Below are positions 1,240-33,591 of a stretch of 64,000 bases of DNA, piece after piece (positions within the stretch are counted from its first letter, which is position 1; every line of letters begins with the position of its first letter). The stretch is from Parvicella tangerina (GTDB lineage Bacteria > Bacteroidota > Bacteroidia > Flavobacteriales_D > Parvicellaceae): contig NZ_OU015584.1 of assembly GCF_907165195.1 (NCBI RefSeq), positions 1,240,001-1,304,000 on the forward strand. Direction: 5' to 3'. A model generated the notes under the pieces. That model was given only the letters and a program-made list of their open reading frames with translations, had not been told where the DNA came from and searched no databases. The position numbers and the translations under genes are program-made.

Positions 1240-4200
1240 TTATCTCATCAAGTACATTTTACCAAACCCTTTGCGAAAAGATCTTTCGTCAGCTGAGGTC
1301 GATCGATGTTCAATGTCCTCTCCATCAATTTTGGCAATTACTCTATAAAGATAAATTCCGTTGGCTAGTTGGTCACCAAACTCGTCACGCCCATCCCAAG
1401 CGTAGGAGGTGATATTGTTGCCAATTCGGATGTCCCCCAAATCGTATAGATCGATCTCTTTCACAACTTTACCCGTTACTGTCATGATCTGAATTTGCAG
1501 TTCATCTGGTATTTTAGAGCCTGTAAGCGTAAAAACAAACTGAGTACTAGTAGAAAATGGATTAGGATAATTGAAAAGATGCGTTATTGACGAATGAGTT
1601 ACAACTTCAAAGTCGATCTCATAACTGTAATCTCCACTAGCGTTTTGAGATTTATCAGATCCTTGAACCTGAAGCGTATAAATTCCGTCTTCAACAAATT
1701 TAGGGTTGTATTCAATTAAGAATTTATTTTGCTCATCCTGAGCTGGCTCGAAGTGGAGTACTTCATCAGGGCCAGTCATAAAGTAAACGCGCTGAAATGA
1801 ACTCTGATCCGGATGTTTAAGGTAGATTTTAAATAAGCTGGTATCTGCAATTTCATCCATTAGCAAAAACGGATTCTCATCATCCAACGTTATCTGAATA
1901 TTGGGTTCCGCACTCACAATATCTTCGTTAATAATATGTACGCCATCAAACGTAACATCTAGAATAGGGTTAATATCATCTTCTGTTACATTAAATGAAA
2001 GTTCTGCTATATTGTTGAAGTAGAATTGCTCCGGTTGATCTTGAATGTTAGTGCTTACGTATGGGTTTGCCACAATCCAAGTGTAATTAATATCAGAAAG
2101 ACCATTTGTTGAATAAGCAACTGTGTCTCTTAAAACACCATATTTTTTGAGTGAATCCTGTCTAGGGTAGGGCATTAAAGTGCGGTTACCGTAGCTCGTA
2201 TGGTTCCAGTATTCCACTAGAAGGCTATCCATGTCAAAATCACTGACATTCTCAATGGCTACGGATATCTTCACTGAGTCACCTTCTTGATATTCTTGCG
2301 ATTTTTTATAGAAACCTTTCTTTGGATTAATAGCCAGTTCTGGAACAGGTTCATAAATAACCTGCCATCGTTTGATTTGAGCAGGTGTTAGCGCTACGGT
2401 ATCGTGGTATTCTGCCTCGAGTTGCATGAGAGGATATAAATTTGCATCAACCAATTGGTCTAGTTGTAGAATAGAGTCAAGGTCTGTCATGAGCGTGTCC
2501 ACAAGTAGTGTTTTACTCTGATTGAACGTAACACCATATATTCGGAGTCTTGTGCTATCAGCGTTTACAAGTTCAAAATCCTCCTGTTCCCAGTGAATCT
2601 GATTCCAGGAGAACGCTGGTCCTACTATTTCAGAGACTATGTAGCCAATTTCACATCCCTGGATAGTATCATAGGTTAATAAGGACTGAGAAGGGTACGA
2701 ACTTCCTGAAGATATGGTATCCGGTGTATGTATTTCGATTGTTTGAGATGGAAGTCCTTTTTGAGCCAGTAATATCCAGCCATCATCAGGTTGATTGTTG
2801 GTGATGTTAGTAGCTCCTAGGTTCTGGAAGGCCGTTATCAGGTCTGCTGGCATCGCTCCATATAGACTAGTTGGATTGCTATAGTTATCAGGAATGAATG
2901 TATAGGCTCCAATGTAATAACCATCAGGCACTTTATTGGTTAAGAAAGAAGTGAGCGAGTCCATTTCAGCTTGATTTCCATACCTGAAAGCAAAGAAGCC
3001 ATGTACTCTATCTCGGTTAAACAAAGTGGTTCCTGGACAGATATCTGGATCTCCATTGTATTGACCGTAACAATGCTCCACGTTATGATATACAGTATCG
3101 GTAAATGCATTGTAGGTAATTTCTTCTCTCCAAGGAGTGCCCCAACTCTCAAGAGAGCAAGGATCAATAACAACGACTAGAATTGCGGGGTATGGGTGCG
3201 GCCCCCCGTAGTCTAACAGAACCCCATTAAGGGTAGCGGATGTGCTTTGAAATGAACTTGTAGACCAATTTCCCACATTAGTATTCATCGCTATTCTGAG
3301 TGTTGAGAAGTTGTCTCCAAAATTAAAAGATCGATTAAGGGTGTCATATTCGATCCCTTGGAAATAGTCATTTTTGAATTGTTGAAAGTGCGCTTGTCCC
3401 CATCCCCATTTACCTGGAATATATTGAAATGAACTCTCTAACCAGTCTTTAGAAGAGCTATCAATACTACACCTCCAATAATAAACGGTGCTGTCAGTAA
3501 AGACTAGCGAGTCTAGATTACCAAGAGCATTAATCCATTGGTTGGGAGGCGCTTCCAATACACCTCCAATGCTGCTAAATAGTTGATGTTTTTTAAAAGG
3601 AGAGTTGAAATTATGGTTGGTATCGATTTCAATAATGTAGTTTTTTTCAGATTCAAAAGGGTCAAGGGTTGAAGCTTTTAGTGTAATAGTGTCATAAGGA
3701 ATAATACCGTATTTATAAGGCCAAATTGGCTGAAGTCCATTTGATGAAATATAGGTGGAATACGTAATTTGATTGTTGGTCAGTTCGTCTTGTTGTTCAA
3801 TAATCTGAGAACTAGGTAAGTCAATTTGAATGTTAAAGTAATTCAAGCCACTCGTTTCTATGTGTCTAGTAGGTAGTTTAAAGCTCAGTGTATCTTTGTT
3901 GTAGCTATCTCCAAGAGCTTGAATAATTGTTGTGTCGAGTCCATTTGGCCCAATTCTCTCAATGACAAGATCATGATTACCAATAAACGCCCTTCCAATA
4001 TTACTAACTACCAAGAAAAGTTCAAATGTGTCAACAGCAAGATCAATCTGGGAAGGAACAGTCCAAACTCTATTTTCATCCAAAACTAATTCTGGTCTTT
4101 GGTGCCAATTAGCCCTCAATGCTGGGTCTCCTTGAAGAGACATGCCTGTATAGTTTGATTCATTTAACACCGACCAATAATTAGAACCTTGCAAGGCATA

Positions 4201-8872: not shown

Positions 8873-9912
8873 TCGAGCAAGAGATTTACTTTTTCTAGTA
8901 CTTTTTCGGGAGGAATCATTTTTCTGATCTCTTCCACCTTGGTCATCTCATTTTCGGAATTAAGTTTCCCGTAAATAGACAGAGGAATATGCTTATACTC
9001 TTGTGGTGAGCGCACGATACAATTTGCTTTATTATTCCAAGCAAAGAAACCAAAGTAGGGATGTGTGGCAATCCAGATTGAGATGACCTTACAGCCTACT
9101 AGATCCGCTAAATGCATGTTTGAACTGTCCATTGCCAGAAATACATCGCAGGATTGCATGATCGCTAGTTCTTCTTCTAATGAGTATTGACCAGCCACAG
9201 AACGGCAACAAGAAAAGTCAAAAGTTAATGCTTTCAGCTTCTTTTCCTCCGTTTTTCCACCACCAAACAGAAGAACTTCATACGATTCTTCCTTTTCGAT
9301 TAGATTCAAAAATGCCTTTACATTTTCATCTCCCCATTCTTTGCTATCATGAGCGGCAAATGGAGCAAAGCCAATGGTTTTCTTTTTTGACCCTGTTTTA
9401 AACTCATGGGATGAGGTGGTTAGAATAAACTGAAAATCATCTGAGGTTTTTAACCCCGCTAACTTTATTGCTGCATTATATCGATCAATAGAATGAGTAA
9501 GTTGTTTGAACTCAGTTTGTCCCATGAGCATAGCGCTCTTTTCATTTCTGCCTTTATTAAAGACAACAGTTTTTACTCCTGATAATTTTAAGCTTGACCG
9601 GACTATTTTACTTCTTAAAACGTCATGCTCATCAATGAAGATAGCTGGCTTTAACGCTTTGATGTCATTTGCCAATTTCAGCAACCCCGTGAATCCTTTG
9701 TGGCGTCCGTTGAGGTCTAATGGGAAAAAGTTTAACCGATCATGCTCTCCAAAAAAAGGATGAAACAAAGGACGGGTTACCAGTGTTATTCGAATATCAG
9801 GATTCGATTCAATGGCATTCCTAACAGCCTGCGCTAACATGGCTACATCTCCCATAGCCGAGAGACGGTAAATGACGATATGTTTTTCATTAGTGATCCT
9901 CAAAAATAGCAA
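8869..9912 (-). CDS. glycosyltransferase family 9 (heptosyltransferase-like)
   Basis: About 345 residues of the GT9 fold. N-terminal IVIYRLSAMGDVAM is the usual GT9 start; TIGFAPFAAHDSKEW and the later DVFLAMDSSNMHLADLVG (nucleotide-sugar site) are characteristic. Family members add heptose or related sugars to the LPS core; the sugar used here is unknown. No ATG exists in frame: the start is taken at TTG 9912, with TTG 9903 possible. An out-of-frame ATG at 9889 sits where homologues usually begin (M-K-x-IVIYRL), so an unusual start or a small indel near the AAAAA run is possible. Confidence 0.82.
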   Translation of the reverse strand: MLFLRITNEKHIVIYRLSAMGDVAMLAQAVRNAIESNPDIRITLVTRPLFHPFFGEHDRLNFFPLDLNGRHKGFTGLLKLANDIKALKPAIFIDEHDVLRSKIVRSSLKLSGVKTVVFNKGRNEKSAMLMGQTEFKQLTHSIDRYNAAIKLAGLKTSDDFQFILTTSSHEFKTGSKKKTIGFAPFAAHDSKEWGDENVKAFLNLIEKEESYEVLLFGGGKTEEKKLKALTFDFSCCRSVAGQYSLEEELAIMQSCDVFLAMDSSNMHLADLVGCKVISIWIATHPYFGFFAWNNKANCIVRSPQEYKHIPLSIYGKLNSENEMTKVEEIRKMIPPEKVLEKVNLLLD

Positions 9913-9988
9913 AACGATTAATAGGCAAAGTTTATTGAATAATAATAAAGGGAATAATTATTGTGCCCTTTTATATAATTTGCATTCT

Positions 9989-10615
9989 ATGATAGAATCA
10001 ATAAATCAGCGGCTTATGCAGTTTACATTTGGAATCCTTGTGACCCTCTTGAGTTTAGCATGTTCTGACCATAGAGACATGCAAACAGAATCAGCTTTTC
10101 TAGATAATATGGCCCGTGATACATATGATGAAACTCCTTTGGCAGATATTCTTGAGTCGAATGCTATTCAAACAGAAGAAATTGAGGTGCTCATTGATAA
10201 GTCTGATTACAAATTATCGATTATTCATGCAGATACAGTGGTGAAGTGGTATCCCGTTGTGCTGGGATACAATGCCGTAGGAGATAAAATGCAAGAGGGA
10301 GATTACAAAACCCCGGAGGGAGTATTTGGTATTCGAGACAAGTACCCGCATAAACATTGGAAGTTTTTTATTTGGATCGATTATCCAAATGAAGAGTCGT
10401 GGAAACGATTTAACCAGAGGAAAGCAGACGGAACGATTTCCAAAGATGCTAAAATAGGAGGTGAGATTGGTATTCATGGAACTCCAGAAGGGGGAGATTA
10501 CCTCATTGAAGAGGGTCAGAACTGGACATTTGGGTGTATTTCTTTAAAGAGGGATCATGTCGCAGAAATCTATCCTTTCATGCACAAGGAGGTTCAGATC
10601 ACTATTCAGAAATAG
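9989..10615 (+). CDS. lipoprotein L,D-transpeptidase (YkuD domain)
   Basis: 208 residues. The N-terminal hydrophobic segment ends LLSLACSD, a lipobox, placing it in the envelope. The YkuD catalytic core is visible: GEIGIHGTPE supplies the His and NWTFGCISLKRDH the nucleophilic Cys of the S/T-x-G-C-I pattern. Such enzymes form 3-3 cross-links in peptidoglycan or attach proteins to it. ATG 9989 was chosen; the open frame upstream runs through the divergent promoter region. ATG 10016 is an alternative that still leaves a lipobox. The 3' end overlaps the convergent epimerase gene by 10 bp. Confidence 0.85.
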   Translation: MIESINQRLMQFTFGILVTLLSLACSDHRDMQTESAFLDNMARDTYDETPLADILESNAIQTEEIEVLIDKSDYKLSIIHADTVVKWYPVVLGYNAVGDKMQEGDYKTPEGVFGIRDKYPHKHWKFFIWIDYPNEESWKRFNQRKADGTISKDAKIGGEIGIHGTPEGGDYLIEEGQNWTFGCISLKRDHVAEIYPFMHKEVQITIQK

Positions 10616-29675: not shown

Positions 29676-29683
29676 TTATTTTA
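29676..29683. repeat. 8-bp target-site duplication, left copy
   Basis: TTATTTTA immediately outside the left inverted repeat, repeated exactly at 33584-33591. Eight bp is the length expected for IS1595-family insertions; the A/T-only sequence makes chance agreement more likely than usual. Confidence 0.8.
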
Positions 29684-29710
29684 AGCACTGTTCTAAAATA
29701 GTGGTGATTT
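29684..29710 (+). repeat. left terminal inverted repeat
   Basis: 27 bp, outer end AGCACTGTTC, inner end GTGGTGATTT; identical to the reverse complement of 33557-33583. On the minus strand it contains TATTTTAG, one mismatch from the -7 consensus, pointing outward at glpK. Confidence 0.92.
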
Positions 29711-30251
29711 AAAAAAAATATTCAAAAAAAATAAACTTTTAGTTTGAATGGAATATAAAAAAGTGTTCCTCCCCATTCAACTCCAAAATGGTTTATGATT
29801 GTACTATCAATCAATGGAGGAAGACCGTCAGAACAAATGTTTTACTAGTGTTCATTTGTTCAGATAGTCAACTCAAACTATCTTATCGTTTAGAGTCAAG
29901 GTATCTAATAATGTAATACACTATTAAATTACCTAAAACGATAGATATAATTTGAATCACGAAAGTAATCCATATCATTTGTTTTAGATTATTTTTATGG
30001 GAGTTTCACCCTACTGACATCTTAGGAACAACAGAGTTGAAGGTCTTACGACCTAAATGACCTAAGATGTTCAGTCTATGGGTTCAAGATAGTTAAATAA
30101 TTTGGATAATATCAATAACAGATAATATAAAATAGGTAACGAAATAGATGGAAGTAGTTGTAAGAAAGGAGACACCGTAGAGAGAGAGAGGAGATAAAGA
30201 AAACTAAACGGGGAACGTTCACGTCATTGATAAACAATCTATTTCTAAGGA
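29711..30251. other. non-coding left end of the transposon with nested inverted repeats
   Basis: Apart from one 31-codon ORF this 541-bp stretch holds no gene I can support. It contains three strong inverted repeats: TTCCTCC..ATT / AATGGAGGAA (29766-29822, two-base bulge), GAACAAATG / CATTTGTTC (29831-29861), and CTGACATCTTAGG / CCTAAGATGTTCAG (30013-30073, one bulge) with an inner AGGTC-TTAC-GACCT hairpin. The third would form a long two-way stem in RNA. No promoter pattern is clear. It may encode a structured RNA or a 5' leader for the small ORF. Confidence 0.5.
29883..29978 (-). CDS. 31-residue single-span membrane peptide
   Basis: Starts MIWITFVIQI and ends VYYIIRYLDSKR: one hydrophobic helix with a short basic tail. 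This plan (one span, then YY-x3-W/Y-LD and a basic end) recalls small membrane peptides and holin-like or type I toxins, but no family is certain. It lies 35 bp downstream of the large hairpin at 30013-30073 when read on the minus strand. Too short for statistical gene calling. Confidence 0.4.
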   Translation of the reverse strand: MIWITFVIQIISIVLGNLIVYYIIRYLDSKR

Positions 30252-30473
30252 TTACTCATCAATTTGTTTCAAAACTTCACTCATCTTAACGTTTTGAGTA
30301 TCACAAATCTGTTTGAACTTTTGGAGTGATAAGTTATATTTTTCTTGTTGGATCAAACGGATTGTTTTTTCATCTATCCCACATGAAATTGCAAAGTCTC
30401 TATTTGACTTGTATTTAGGTCGAAAATTCTTATAAATGTATCGACATAATTTGATTGTAAATTCATTCTCCAC
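30252..30473 (-). CDS. small XRE-like helix-turn-helix regulator
   Basis: 73 residues. Helix-turn-helix pattern in SNRDFAISCGIDEKTIRLIQQEKYNLSLQKFKQICDT, typical of Cro/C1-type DNA-binding proteins. GTG start at 30473; no in-frame ATG. Divergent from the 30569 gene, and the shared 95-bp intergenic region holds two GGAA..ATATTCC palindromes that are plausible operators. Probably controls the transposon cargo genes. Confidence 0.72.
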   Translation of the reverse strand: MENEFTIKLCRYIYKNFRPKYKSNRDFAISCGIDEKTIRLIQQEKYNLSLQKFKQICDTQNVKMSEVLKQIDE

Positions 30474-30508
30474 ATATCAAAAATGATGAAGTGGTTGATT
30501 TTAACTGC

Positions 30509-30539
30509 GGAATATATTCCGTTATTCGGAAAATATTCC
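30509..30539. promoter_or_regulatory. two tandem operator-like palindromes
   Basis: GGAATATATTCC (perfect 12-bp palindrome, 30509-30520) and GGAAAATATTCC (30528-30539), centres 19 bp apart, roughly two helical turns. They lie between the divergent HTH gene and the 30569 gene. Confidence 0.6.
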
Positions 30540-30568
30540 TAATTTTGGGTCGAATAAAAACAATAACT

Positions 30569-30712
30569 ATGAAAACTTACACAATCAAAATTAAAGTACC
30601 AGGAACGTATTACACCGTTAATGTTAAGTCCGGTTCAGAATCAGGTGCAATTGAAGAAGTAAAGAAGAAATACCCCAAAATGATTTCTGTTGAATCCATT
30701 AAATCAAAATAA
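30569..30712 (+). CDS. small transposon-borne protein of unknown function
   Basis: 47 residues (MKTYTIKIKVPGTYYTVNVK ...), basic, predicted beta-beta-alpha. The end EEVKKKYPKMISVESIKSK resembles short phage or plasmid proteins of the form beta-strand pair plus helix. ATG 30569 was chosen because the upstream GTG reading would cross the operator palindromes. Followed 4 bp later by the lipoprotein gene. Confidence 0.55.
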   Translation: MKTYTIKIKVPGTYYTVNVKSGSESGAIEEVKKKYPKMISVESIKSK

Positions 30713-30716
30713 AAAT

Positions 30717-31112
30717 ATGAAAAAACTAATTTACATTACTTTATTAGGGATTACAATAGGATCATGTAGTTCTGATGTAGAATTAAATGGTGTCTGGGAA
30801 AACTCTGACTATGATCAACTGAATCTGACAATTAAAGAAGTAGCGGACAACAAACTTCATGTATCGGGTAGATATTACAATGATGTAGTAACTAAATTGA
30901 ATAAACCGACTGAAAACAAGATTTTTGAAATTGAAGGTGAATTTACTGTTGTTGATAAAGAGGAAAAAACGTATGAGTACATAAAAAAGGGAACGTGTGA
31001 TATTTGTCCAGACAAACACTACTTCATAGATATAGAAGATGACTATTTATTGTTATACAAAGTCAATAAAAAAGGAGAGAAAGGATTTGAAAACACTTAC
31101 CAAAAAAAGTGA
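30717..31112 (+). CDS. small lipoprotein on the transposon
   Basis: 131 residues. Signal MKKLIYITLLGITIGSCSS with a lipobox Cys at 17; mature part starts ELNGVWENSDYDQLNLTI and continues with alternating beta-strands, a lipocalin-like style, and a late TCDICP Cys pair. Function unknown. It stands behind the 47-residue gene, so the two are probably co-transcribed. Confidence 0.65.
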   Translation: MKKLIYITLLGITIGSCSSDVELNGVWENSDYDQLNLTIKEVADNKLHVSGRYYNDVVTKLNKPTENKIFEIEGEFTVVDKEEKTYEYIKKGTCDICPDKHYFIDIEDDYLLLYKVNKKGEKGFENTYQKK

Positions 31113-31138
31113 TATACACACTAAAATAATTTGTGTAT

Positions 31139-31402
31139 ATGTCAAAACTATTTAATTTTCTGAGATCAATTTTCAGTAAAAAGAAACCCATGTTATCAGA
31201 TAACGAAATTAGAAGTATCAAAGGAAAACTAACTTCAATTCAAACCCTTTTAGAAGGGAAAATAGACGATTTAGATAATGAACTATTAGGGACAAAATAT
31301 AATATGTTAAAAGACCTTTTAGATCTACCTGTTAAAACTTTGGAAGATATTAAATTAACCCAGGATAACATCAATCGGAGAATAAGACGGTTTGGGGAAT
31401 AG
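31139..31402 (+). CDS. small helical transposon protein, intact paralogue of the broken gene at 33264
   Basis: 87 residues: MSKLFNFLRSIFSKKK, a basic amphipathic lead, then helices (LSDNEIRSIKGKLTSIQTLL ... LEDIKLTQDNINRRIRRF). It aligns along its full length with the frameshifted gene at 33264-33537 (FLRSIF-KK/IRTIFKK, LSDNEI/FSDQEI, NELLGTKYNML/RELLTGYKNL). Function unknown. Its stop directly abuts that of the convergent 56-residue gene. Confidence 0.6.
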   Translation: MSKLFNFLRSIFSKKKPMLSDNEIRSIKGKLTSIQTLLEGKIDDLDNELLGTKYNMLKDLLDLPVKTLEDIKLTQDNINRRIRRFGE

Positions 31403-31573
31403 TTACTTCTTGTAAGTCTTTCTAAATCGTTCTTTTCGAATTTGTATTTTTTTGATCTGGAGTTTTAGTTTTTCGATTTCTATATCAAATATCGTTAATG
31501 TCCGACTGTAAATATCATTATCAGTCGATAGTTTTTCTCTTAACTTATTAATTCGATTTTGAATGTCTTTCAT
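31403..31573 (-). CDS. 56-residue coiled-coil protein on the transposon
   Basis: ATG at 31573 immediately after the stop of the 62-residue gene; 56 residues starting MKDIQNRINKLREKLSTDND and ending RFRKTYKK. Almost wholly helical and strongly basic with heptad-like spacing. No family recognised. Its stop codon abuts that of the convergent gene at 31402. Confidence 0.5.
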   Translation of the reverse strand: MKDIQNRINKLREKLSTDNDIYSRTLTIFDIEIEKLKLQIKKIQIRKERFRKTYKK

Positions 31574-31762
31574 CTAAATTTTAGGTGACTCTCTATTTTC
31601 ATCATATTCTCGTTTAGTTTCATCCTCATACGTTGATTTTAAGATTTCTTTTTCGTGTTTCGGAATATGTTCCCACTCCTTTGACATCTGTAATTCTTGA
31701 TAGGTTAAATACAGATTAGAAGAATCATTTTCAAATAATTTATATGGTATTAAATACTTCAT
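31574..31762 (-). CDS. small phage-like protein with MKYLIPYKLFE start
   Basis: 62 residues, very polar and acidic after the first 11. The N terminus MKYLIPYKLFEND is shared in pattern with the 97-residue gene at 32910 (MKYIKEYRLFEKM) and resembles the start of many short phage-encoded proteins. Function unknown. Adjacent, without a gap, to the coiled-coil gene. Confidence 0.5.
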   Translation of the reverse strand: MKYLIPYKLFENDSSNLYLTYQELQMSKEWEHIPKHEKEILKSTYEDETKREYDENRESPKI

Positions 31763-31795
31763 ACCCTATATATTATCTCTGAGAATCAAACATTT

Positions 31796-32869
31796 CTAAA
31801 TACTGAAAGAATTTACAAAATTCCAGTATGAGTTTTCTATTTTGGAGAATCGTACTTGTGTAGAGTCGTCTTTAAGACTTTTCTTTATAAAATCTTCCAC
31901 TTTATTATCTGAATCAAGTATAAACTTCAATACTTTGAAATAATTCAAATAGTTGTTCAAATACTTAGTTGAAACTGAACTGAAACTACTCTTAATCCAT
32001 GATTTAAAACGACCATCCGTATTATTCAATGTGTTAAGATGGAATGTTCCTCTTGACCATTCCTTTCTTCTTATATTTAAGGATTCATGATCAAATCCGT
32101 ACATTTGAAGTAAATTGTAAGATTTACATTCGTCAGTAACAAAAATATTATCAGTATTAAATCGACTAACAAACTTATCGTTTAGACAATACCCAAGACT
32201 CTTAATTGAAATCTTACCTATTTTTAGAAGTCCTGTTTCAATAGTTCCATAACGATCAATACAGAGTAAAAAAGATACCTGATCATTACTAATACCTCGT
32301 TTTCTTTTCTTCTTTAGTCTAAATGATTGACGATTACCATGTCTATTAATTCCTATAATAGTTCGTCTTTTTTCTTCAATAAACCCTGTTTTACGTCCTT
32401 TTTGATTAAATCTCATTTGAACATCGTCCATTTCAACGATACCCTTAAATTCTTTAGAATCTATATTTTCTATACTTGAAAGTAATTTATGTCTCCAATC
32501 AAATACAGTTTGAATACTTAAACCTAACTTCTTTGATATATCTCGAATTGAAAAAGATTGTAGGGTCATATCAATAAAACTACCCCACAACTCCTTCTTA
32601 TGAATTCTATGAACACAAGTACCAGTTAATAGACCAAACCCCTTTCCACAAGACTTACAAACGTATTTTTGTTTATCCTTATACTTTCCGTTTTTATATA
32701 TATCTTCAGATTTACAATGTGGACAGTTTGGTCTACCATCAATATGACCAGAACGATGAAACATCAAATCTTCTCCAAGAACTTTCCTTCTTATTTCCTC
32801 AACATATTGAAGACGTTCTTCAATGGTCATGTATTTGGTGTCTTGTTGTATGTTTTTTAATATTCTCAT
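31796..32869 (-). CDS. IS1595-family (ISXO2-like) transposase
   Basis: 357 residues, intact. N-terminal zinc ribbon with Cys49-x2-Cys52 and Cys71-x2-Cys74 (CPHC ... CKSC), an HTH-like segment (LGLSIQTVFDWRHKLL), then the DDE-type core: Asp in VEMDDVQ near 148, Asp246 in VTDECKSY, and the FHLNTLNNTDGRFKSW block with H277 and following Asn residues that replaces the third acidic residue in this family. C-terminal VSTKYLNNYLNYF is typical. Moves the element using the 27-bp ends. Confidence 0.9.
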   Translation of the reverse strand: MRILKNIQQDTKYMTIEERLQYVEEIRRKVLGEDLMFHRSGHIDGRPNCPHCKSEDIYKNGKYKDKQKYVCKSCGKGFGLLTGTCVHRIHKKELWGSFIDMTLQSFSIRDISKKLGLSIQTVFDWRHKLLSSIENIDSKEFKGIVEMDDVQMRFNQKGRKTGFIEEKRRTIIGINRHGNRQSFRLKKKRKRGISNDQVSFLLCIDRYGTIETGLLKIGKISIKSLGYCLNDKFVSRFNTDNIFVTDECKSYNLLQMYGFDHESLNIRRKEWSRGTFHLNTLNNTDGRFKSWIKSSFSSVSTKYLNNYLNYFKVLKFILDSDNKVEDFIKKSLKDDSTQVRFSKIENSYWNFVNSFSI

Positions 32870-32909
32870 ACAACTAAGTAACGGATTTACTACGTAAAAT
32901 AGTTACGTT

Positions 32910-33203
32910 CTACTCAGATTTAGGATCAATGTTATACTTATCATTCATATTCTTTCTGAATTGATATAATTCATCATCTTTTATGTCATTTCCTTCAAAA
33001 TCTTCTCCCCAAATATATATCCATCGTTCTTCTTCAGTAAGACCCTTTTCTTGTAATTTCTTATCAAGATCATCACAAACAAAACCTATAACATCTATCA
33101 TTTCGTCTTCACTTAGTTTAGATGTCATTTTCATAAGATTCTTTAACCTATCCTTACTAATTCCCATTTTCTCAAATAATCTATACTCTTTAATATATTT
33201 CAT
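32910..33203 (-). CDS. small phage-like protein with MKYIKEYRLFE start
   Basis: 97 residues, acidic and helical: MKYIKEYRLFEKMGISKDRL ... EERWIYIWGEDFEGND. The first 11 residues share their pattern with the 62-residue gene on the other side of the transposase; the rest does not obviously align. ATG start; divergent from the frameshifted gene at 33264. Function unknown. Confidence 0.5.
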   Translation of the reverse strand: MKYIKEYRLFEKMGISKDRLKNLMKMTSKLSEDEMIDVIGFVCDDLDKKLQEKGLTEEERWIYIWGEDFEGNDIKDDELYQFRKNMNDKYNIDPKSE

Positions 33204-33263
33204 AAACTATATATTAAACAAATCAGTTCAGAAATGATATATACTCTAAAATCAGGTATTGAG

Positions 33264-33537
33264 ATGTTAGATTATATAAGAACCATATTTAAGAAGTTAT
33301 TTCTAAAGAATAGAATTATGTTTTCGGATCAAGAAATTATCAACTTTAAAAATCAGTTCAATCATATACAAACAAGACTCAATGTTGTTAGTGGACAAGT
33401 TAATAAATAGAGAATTATTGACAGGATATAAGAACTTGGAAAGAACGATACAACATTCATCCGAAATATTAGATGAAATACAACAAGTCCAAAATGACTT
33501 AAACGAAACTAACATTCAACGTTTTGATGAATTTTAG
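33264..33537 (+). pseudogene. frameshifted paralogue of the 31139 gene
   Basis: Reading from ATG 33264 gives 48 codons (MLDYIRTIFKKLFLKN ... SGQVNK) and then TAG at 33408. Dropping one A from the AAA at 33405-33407 continues the frame as NRELLTGYKNLERTI ... IQRFDEF to TAG 33535-33537, which aligns with the second half of the 31139 gene product. A one-base insertion in an A run therefore broke it, or a sequencing error or programmed slip is involved. Confidence 0.65.
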
Positions 33538-33556
33538 GATAATTTGGTAGTTAATA

Positions 33557-33583
33557 AAATCACCACTATTTTAGAACAGTGCT
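33557..33583 (-). repeat. right terminal inverted repeat
   Basis: Exact reverse complement of the left repeat over 27 bp. Outward on the plus strand TATTTTAG is preceded by TTTG with 20 bp between, close to a Bacteroidota promoter. Confidence 0.92.
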
Positions 33584-33591
33584 TTATTTTA
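33584..33591. repeat. 8-bp target-site duplication, right copy
   Basis: TTATTTTA, identical to 29676-29683. Beyond it lies the displaced native region that formerly preceded glpK. Confidence 0.8.

Follow-up and report, generated by a model that had tools for sequence, protein, structure and literature searches.

The question raised by this locus is whether an A+T-rich block in the genome of the Bacteroidota species Parvicella tangerina is a complete mobile element and, if so, what its unfamiliar cargo consists of. We analysed a stretch of 64,000 nucleotides, referred to below as the window, in which the element proper spans positions 29684-33583 (3900 bp); the limits given by the original prediction, 29676-33591, take in both target duplications. 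An independent scan around the transposase for 8-bp repeats combined with inverted ends returned a single result, the TTATTTTA/inverted-end pair, and the inverted ends (AGCACTGTTCTAAAATAGTGGTGATTT) were identical at 27 of 27 bp, just as predicted. The boundaries are as follows.

29676-29683, no strand: left copy of the target duplication TTATTTTA (repeat and inverted-end search)
29684-29710, plus strand: left terminal inverted repeat, 27 bp (sequence comparison of the ends)
33557-33583, minus strand: right terminal inverted repeat, 27 bp (sequence comparison of the ends)
33584-33591, no strand: right copy of the target duplication TTATTTTA (repeat and inverted-end search)

On the left lies a glycerol-kinase-like gene (start 29672, minus strand) and on the right a large secreted-type gene (start 33744, plus strand); the two names come from reading the translations by eye. 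The G+C content of the element, which is about 70% A+T overall, is approximately 0.28-0.31 as compared with 0.36-0.43 in its neighbours, confirming that its A/T-rich genes are unlike those around them. As the ends and the duplication are perfect and the three congeners searched contained no counterpart of the element, the recent movement that had been proposed is plausible. The prediction of a complete transposon stood for the ends, the duplication and the transposase, all of which are intact, but not for all of the cargo; one passenger copy, at 33264-33540, is frameshifted, and the cargo is therefore only partly intact.

The single intact IS1595-type transposase that had been predicted passed the curated cut-offs of both NCBIfam and Pfam.

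31796-32869, minus strand: IS1595-family transposase, 357 aa (NCBIfam and Pfam profiles, tree)

It scored 122.4 bits against NCBIfam NF033547 for IS1595 (cut-off 75), 53 bits against the ISXO2-like family PF12762 of Pfam (cut-off 27) and 47 bits against NF050000 (cut-off 28), and it contains both the IS1/IS1595 zinc ribbon and the ISXO2-like catalytic domain. With terminal inverted repeats, an 8-bp target duplication and about 2.8 kb of non-transposase DNA in its 3.9 kb, the element belongs securely to the passenger transposons (tIS) of the IS1595 family.

The passengers other than two genes taken up further below, together with a structured region at the left end, are listed here.

29715-30105, minus strand: structured non-coding region, candidate RNA of about 390 nt (RNA fold z -5.5 on the minus and -4.0 on the plus strand)
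30252-30473, minus strand: small HTH (Cro/C1-like) regulator, 73 aa (Pfam HTH_26)
30509-30539, no strand: two palindromes, GGAATATATTCC and CGGAAAATATTCC, between divergent genes (palindrome search)
30569-30712, plus strand: 47-aa protein (weak PHROG match, E 0.003)
30717-31112, plus strand: 131-aa protein with a lipoprotein-type signal, ITIGSCSS (ORF translation)
31139-31402, plus strand: 87-aa coiled-coil-like protein with a hydrophobic start (ORF translation)
31403-31573, minus strand: 56-aa protein (ORF list)
33264-33540, plus strand: second copy of the 87-aa gene, disrupted by a frameshift (a pair of overlapping ORFs that both match the 87-aa protein)

The regulator matched HTH_26 with an E value of 2.5e-4 and 21.6 bits, slightly below the cut-off of 22. 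It faces a small lipoprotein operon across the two palindromes, which are likely to be its operator, and we presume that it would act there as a repressor. The 131-aa lipoprotein had no family match among Pfam and NCBIfam profiles, and the 87-aa protein had no convincing one in Pfam, PHROGs or NCBIfam. A defence role for the cargo found no family support with PADLOC, nor did a toxin-antitoxin reading with Pfam and NCBIfam. The candidate RNA is the sole structured block in the element in a 150-nt scan, and its minus strand has a U-rich run at the end, beside the left end of the element. It belongs to no Rfam family and gave no homologues in the searches made. The original prediction was borne out in its further elements as well: the assignment to the IS1595 family, a passenger set without earlier description, small proteins of phage-like character and a non-coding, structured end.

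The prediction had also proposed a search for the same ends with other cargo, and such a case was present in the same genome. This second element (contig position 3373-6465; L005, G000:C1) is 3093 bp long, has ends AGCACTGTCCTAAATTAGCGGTGCT that match those of the window element at 20 of the first 23 bp, is flanked by its own 8-bp duplication TTGTTATA, and encodes a transposase 54% identical to that in the window together with unrelated cargo. That cargo comprises an XRE regulator and proteins of 218, 123, 71 and 70 aa, and near-perfect palindromes (GTCATAATTAGTTATGAC) lie between its divergent genes. A third element, of 2800 bp with 25-bp perfect ends and the 8-bp duplication TAAAAAAT, was found in Flavobacteriales bacterium UBA7666, which belongs to another bacterial family; it also carries, on the minus strand at 2577-3206 of locus L019, a secreted protein with a type IX secretion sorting domain (TIGR04183). 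In a tree the three transposases formed one clade with support of 98/97, and named IS1595 elements have transposases only about 30% identical to those of the clade. Residues D148/D149 and D246 were invariant in a comparison of just these three sequences, and the putative third catalytic site falls in the N-rich stretch HLNTLNN, the family pattern being D-D-E or D-D-N. All three elements have a small HTH gene facing away from the passenger operon, with palindromes between the two in the window element and the second element, and in each of the three an ACGTAA/TTACGT-type motif lies about 20-40 bp before the transposase start, represented in the window by the following feature.

32892-32911, no strand: palindrome ACGTAA-N5-TTACGT upstream of the transposase (similar motif in a similar place in both sister elements)

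To judge from their ORF layout, both sister elements lack a similar non-coding block at the ends, and a comparison of the 87-aa protein with the cargo of the other elements was not convincing. Clade members are rare: about 1100 Bacteroidota genomes (399, 395 and 396 genomes from the order, class and phylum) yielded the three elements and one decayed relative (G599), and two scans of genome contigs returned only UBA7666 and one spurious match. No copy of the transposase clade was found in phages when IMG/VR was searched with transposase patterns and element ends; such collections were searched by exact degenerate patterns, which miss diverged copies. Two passenger-carrying IS1595 elements of another subgroup also occur in Bacteroidia, at L031 6405-8651 (2.2 kb) and L035 5393-8114 (2.7 kb), both with 8-bp duplications.

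The remaining two passengers flank the transposase, one on each side, and share a sequence at their N-termini that the original prediction had not described.

31574-31762, minus strand: 62-aa tagged protein, start MKYLIPYKLFE (tag pattern searches)
32910-33203, minus strand: 97-aa tagged protein, start MKYIKEYRLFE (tag pattern searches)

The gene for the 97-aa protein is situated upstream of the transposase gene at a distance of 40 bp, and the two have the same orientation. In UBA7666 the protein adjoining the transposase starts MRYIKVFE, giving a consensus at protein starts of MKY(I/L)xxYxLFE or MRYIKVFE, and beyond it the bodies of the three tagged transposon proteins showed no mutual resemblance by eye. 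A 33-base pattern for the window tag occurred at 79 loci in IMG/VR and a 24-base short form at more than 118 loci among the matches listed; the contigs concerned were in many cases 100-436 kb long. When 172 of these matches were found again, 165 lay at the beginning of ORFs with a minimum length of 35 aa, whose proteins look mutually unrelated. One N-terminal tag of the form MKYLKxYxLFE(S/N/K) is thus common to many unrelated proteins of large T4-like phages (IMG/VR loci L038-L194), some of these proteins having kinase-like or repeat-like bodies, and it has the appearance of a general code by which this phage group addresses proteins to the head. Tenacibaculum phage PTm1 and Prevotella phage Lak-B5 were considered as carriers, and the parts of them that were read contained no tag. 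The T4-type prohead protease family scored in 8 of 24 tag-bearing contigs, three times above the cut-off; in the contigs read the protease adjoins a gp23-like capsid protein, and PHROGs names in such contigs include head protease, major head protein and portal. The tag is therefore, as in T4-type capsid targeting, an N-terminal sequence common to unrelated proteins in phages with T4-type head genes, and its end resembles a prohead-protease site at which cleavage is predicted.

The distribution in bacteria was quite different. Only the two window genes matched the 33-base tag in 100 relatives and in 345 genomes of the class, samples that both include the genome itself, and the tag was absent elsewhere from about 430 other Bacteroidota genomes; the short form, searched in UBA7666 and 57 relatives, matched only the UBA7666 transposon gene. 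Since the patterns were built from these genes, their own matches carry no weight; what is informative is that the tag is missing from the other bacterial sequences searched and abundant among phages. No tag appeared in 2000 shuffles of the element, and no phage homologue of the tagged proteins was found beyond the tag itself.

A second sign, likewise absent from the original prediction, precedes the tagged genes.

31766-31772, minus strand: TATATAG box, starting 10 bases before the ATG of the 62-aa gene (box position count)
33207-33213, minus strand: TATATAG box, starting 10 bases before the ATG of the 97-aa gene (box position count)
33238-33244, plus strand: TATATAC box, 26 bases before the ATG at 33264 of the frameshifted copy (box position count)

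In every one of the three tagged genes of the two elements, TATATA(G/C) starts exactly 10 bases ahead of the ATG. In ORFs of the phage loci that were fetched, box positions peaked at -10 and -11, with a smaller peak near -27, and the box preceded 12% of tagged ORFs as compared with 4% of other phage ORFs and 0.6% after shuffling. Boxes of this type also precede several capsid and protease genes in tag-bearing phages, and megaphage LR756502 has both tag and box. None of 66 host ORFs was preceded by the box, a small control beside the large, genome-wide one for the tag. In dinucleotide shuffles of the element the mean number of box-then-ATG pairs at this distance was 0.07 as compared with the 2 observed, a number reached in 4 of 2000 shuffles. 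Because tag and box were chosen after the genes had been seen, these figures describe a contrast and were not pre-registered. They bear on the explanation that nothing more than an ordinary passenger transposon is present, with small A/T-rich genes that mimic phage tags and boxes by chance. Such mimicry would suit the A+T-rich composition and the number of TATATA(G/C) boxes in the element, which is not above chance (3 seen, 2.0 expected) and leaves position alone telling, but two tags in 3.9 kb, the fixed position of the box in every tagged gene and the recurrence of both signs in UBA7666 argue so strongly against it that we consider coincidence, already disfavoured, very improbable.

The presence of phage-type signals in the element is thus well supported. 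Two separate sequence signs and their recurrence in two bacterial families point to tagged genes that either came from phages or are adapted to them, and suggest that the element spends part of its existence alongside giant T4-like phages or by means of them. We give slightly better than even chances to the reading that this complete passenger transposon of the IS1595 family has become adapted to large phages of the T4 type. It is favoured by the recurrence of tag and box on an unrelated protein body in UBA7666, and against it count the lack of a phage-borne clade copy in IMG/VR and of tagged genes in the second element. The transposase, by analogy with its family, would act on the 27-bp ends and produce the 8-bp duplication that are seen at this site. 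The tagged genes on either side of it, with boxes placed as in phages, would be read by the late transcription machinery of an infecting phage, and their products may be taken into new phage heads and, at the next infection, be injected into the cell; a further possibility is that the element itself inserts into phage DNA and is carried along. Given the position of the 97-aa gene, a late start at 33213 could also raise expression of the transposase, and this possible read-through leads us to suspect phage-coupled transposition. The fullest version, in which late transcription switches on both the tagged genes and the transposase, phage DNA receives the element while it is being replicated, and tagged proteins and element travel by phage head to the next bacterium, strikes us as rather unlikely.

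One tag-bearing phage contig of 111 kb (G1151) does contain an IS1595-family insertion, at about 9116-10163 of locus L263. It is an ordinary IS of about 1 kb and not a member of the clade, and a TnpB-like gene, named by eye, lies just upstream of it. Elements of the IS1595 family can therefore enter such phages, which is consistent also with a passive relic, that is, a passenger transposon that was once in a large phage or exchanged DNA with one, acquired a few of its tagged genes in this way, and retains them as inert chromosomal baggage. The frameshifted passenger copy and the untagged second element fit such a history; tag and box, however, are intact in all three tagged genes, in elements from different bacterial families, and these genes have unrelated bodies and each adjoin the transposase. 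We regard the relic as possible, if on the whole unlikely. A different use of the same signals would be anti-phage cargo, in which the tagged proteins are made only late in infection by a tag-type phage, enter proheads and spoil assembly or the next infection, thereby protecting the host. Transposons often carry fitness genes, and tag and box would provide exactly such timing and address, but the proteins match no known defence family in PADLOC and are small, with no domain recognised by Pfam or PHROGs, so that we think this quite improbable. If the signals work in the phage-adapted transposon that we propose, it exploits the phage's own late switch and head-addressing code; our literature searches turned up no such link between insertion sequences and giant phages.

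Among known systems, the phage satellites P4, PICI and PLE are likewise chromosomal elements with genes apparently tuned to a helper phage. The present element, in contrast, moves by an IS1595-type transposase, and its ORFs included no packaging, capsid-remodelling or replication gene in searches with Pfam, PHROGs, NCBIfam and PADLOC. The capsid targeting sequence of T4 is a 10-residue tag, common to unrelated internal proteins, in which residues 4 and 7 target and residues 8 and 10 direct cleavage (PMC9026906, PMC3012670). The tag described here resembles it in the initial M-K, a hydrophobic or aromatic residue at 4, an aromatic residue at 7, a closing (L/I)xE and its occurrence on otherwise unrelated small proteins, and differs in being one residue longer and in belonging to genes of a chromosomal transposon, whose products would be packaged. 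Late promoters of T4 have TATAAATA at -13 to -6 from the start site (PMC1524935). The TATATA(G/C) box is likewise a short A/T box in a fixed place, found also near head genes of the tag-bearing phages, but its core is a variant of that consensus, and since it lies at -10 from the ATG a start at the T4 spacing would give leaderless transcripts; it thus resembles a leaderless T4-type late promoter, in putative use. Passenger transposons are already a known kind in the IS1595 family, to which the present clade adds a small group: tISSag10 (= MTnSag1) and tISCpe8 carry lnu(C) resistance (PMC5704250, citing Siguier et al. 2009). They share with our element an IS1595-family transposase, inverted ends of about 25 bp, a short target duplication and passengers within the ends, whereas here the transposase is only about 30% identical to named members and, in place of lnu(C), the interior contains a lipoprotein operon under HTH control, genes that bear phage tags and, at one end, the structured non-coding region.
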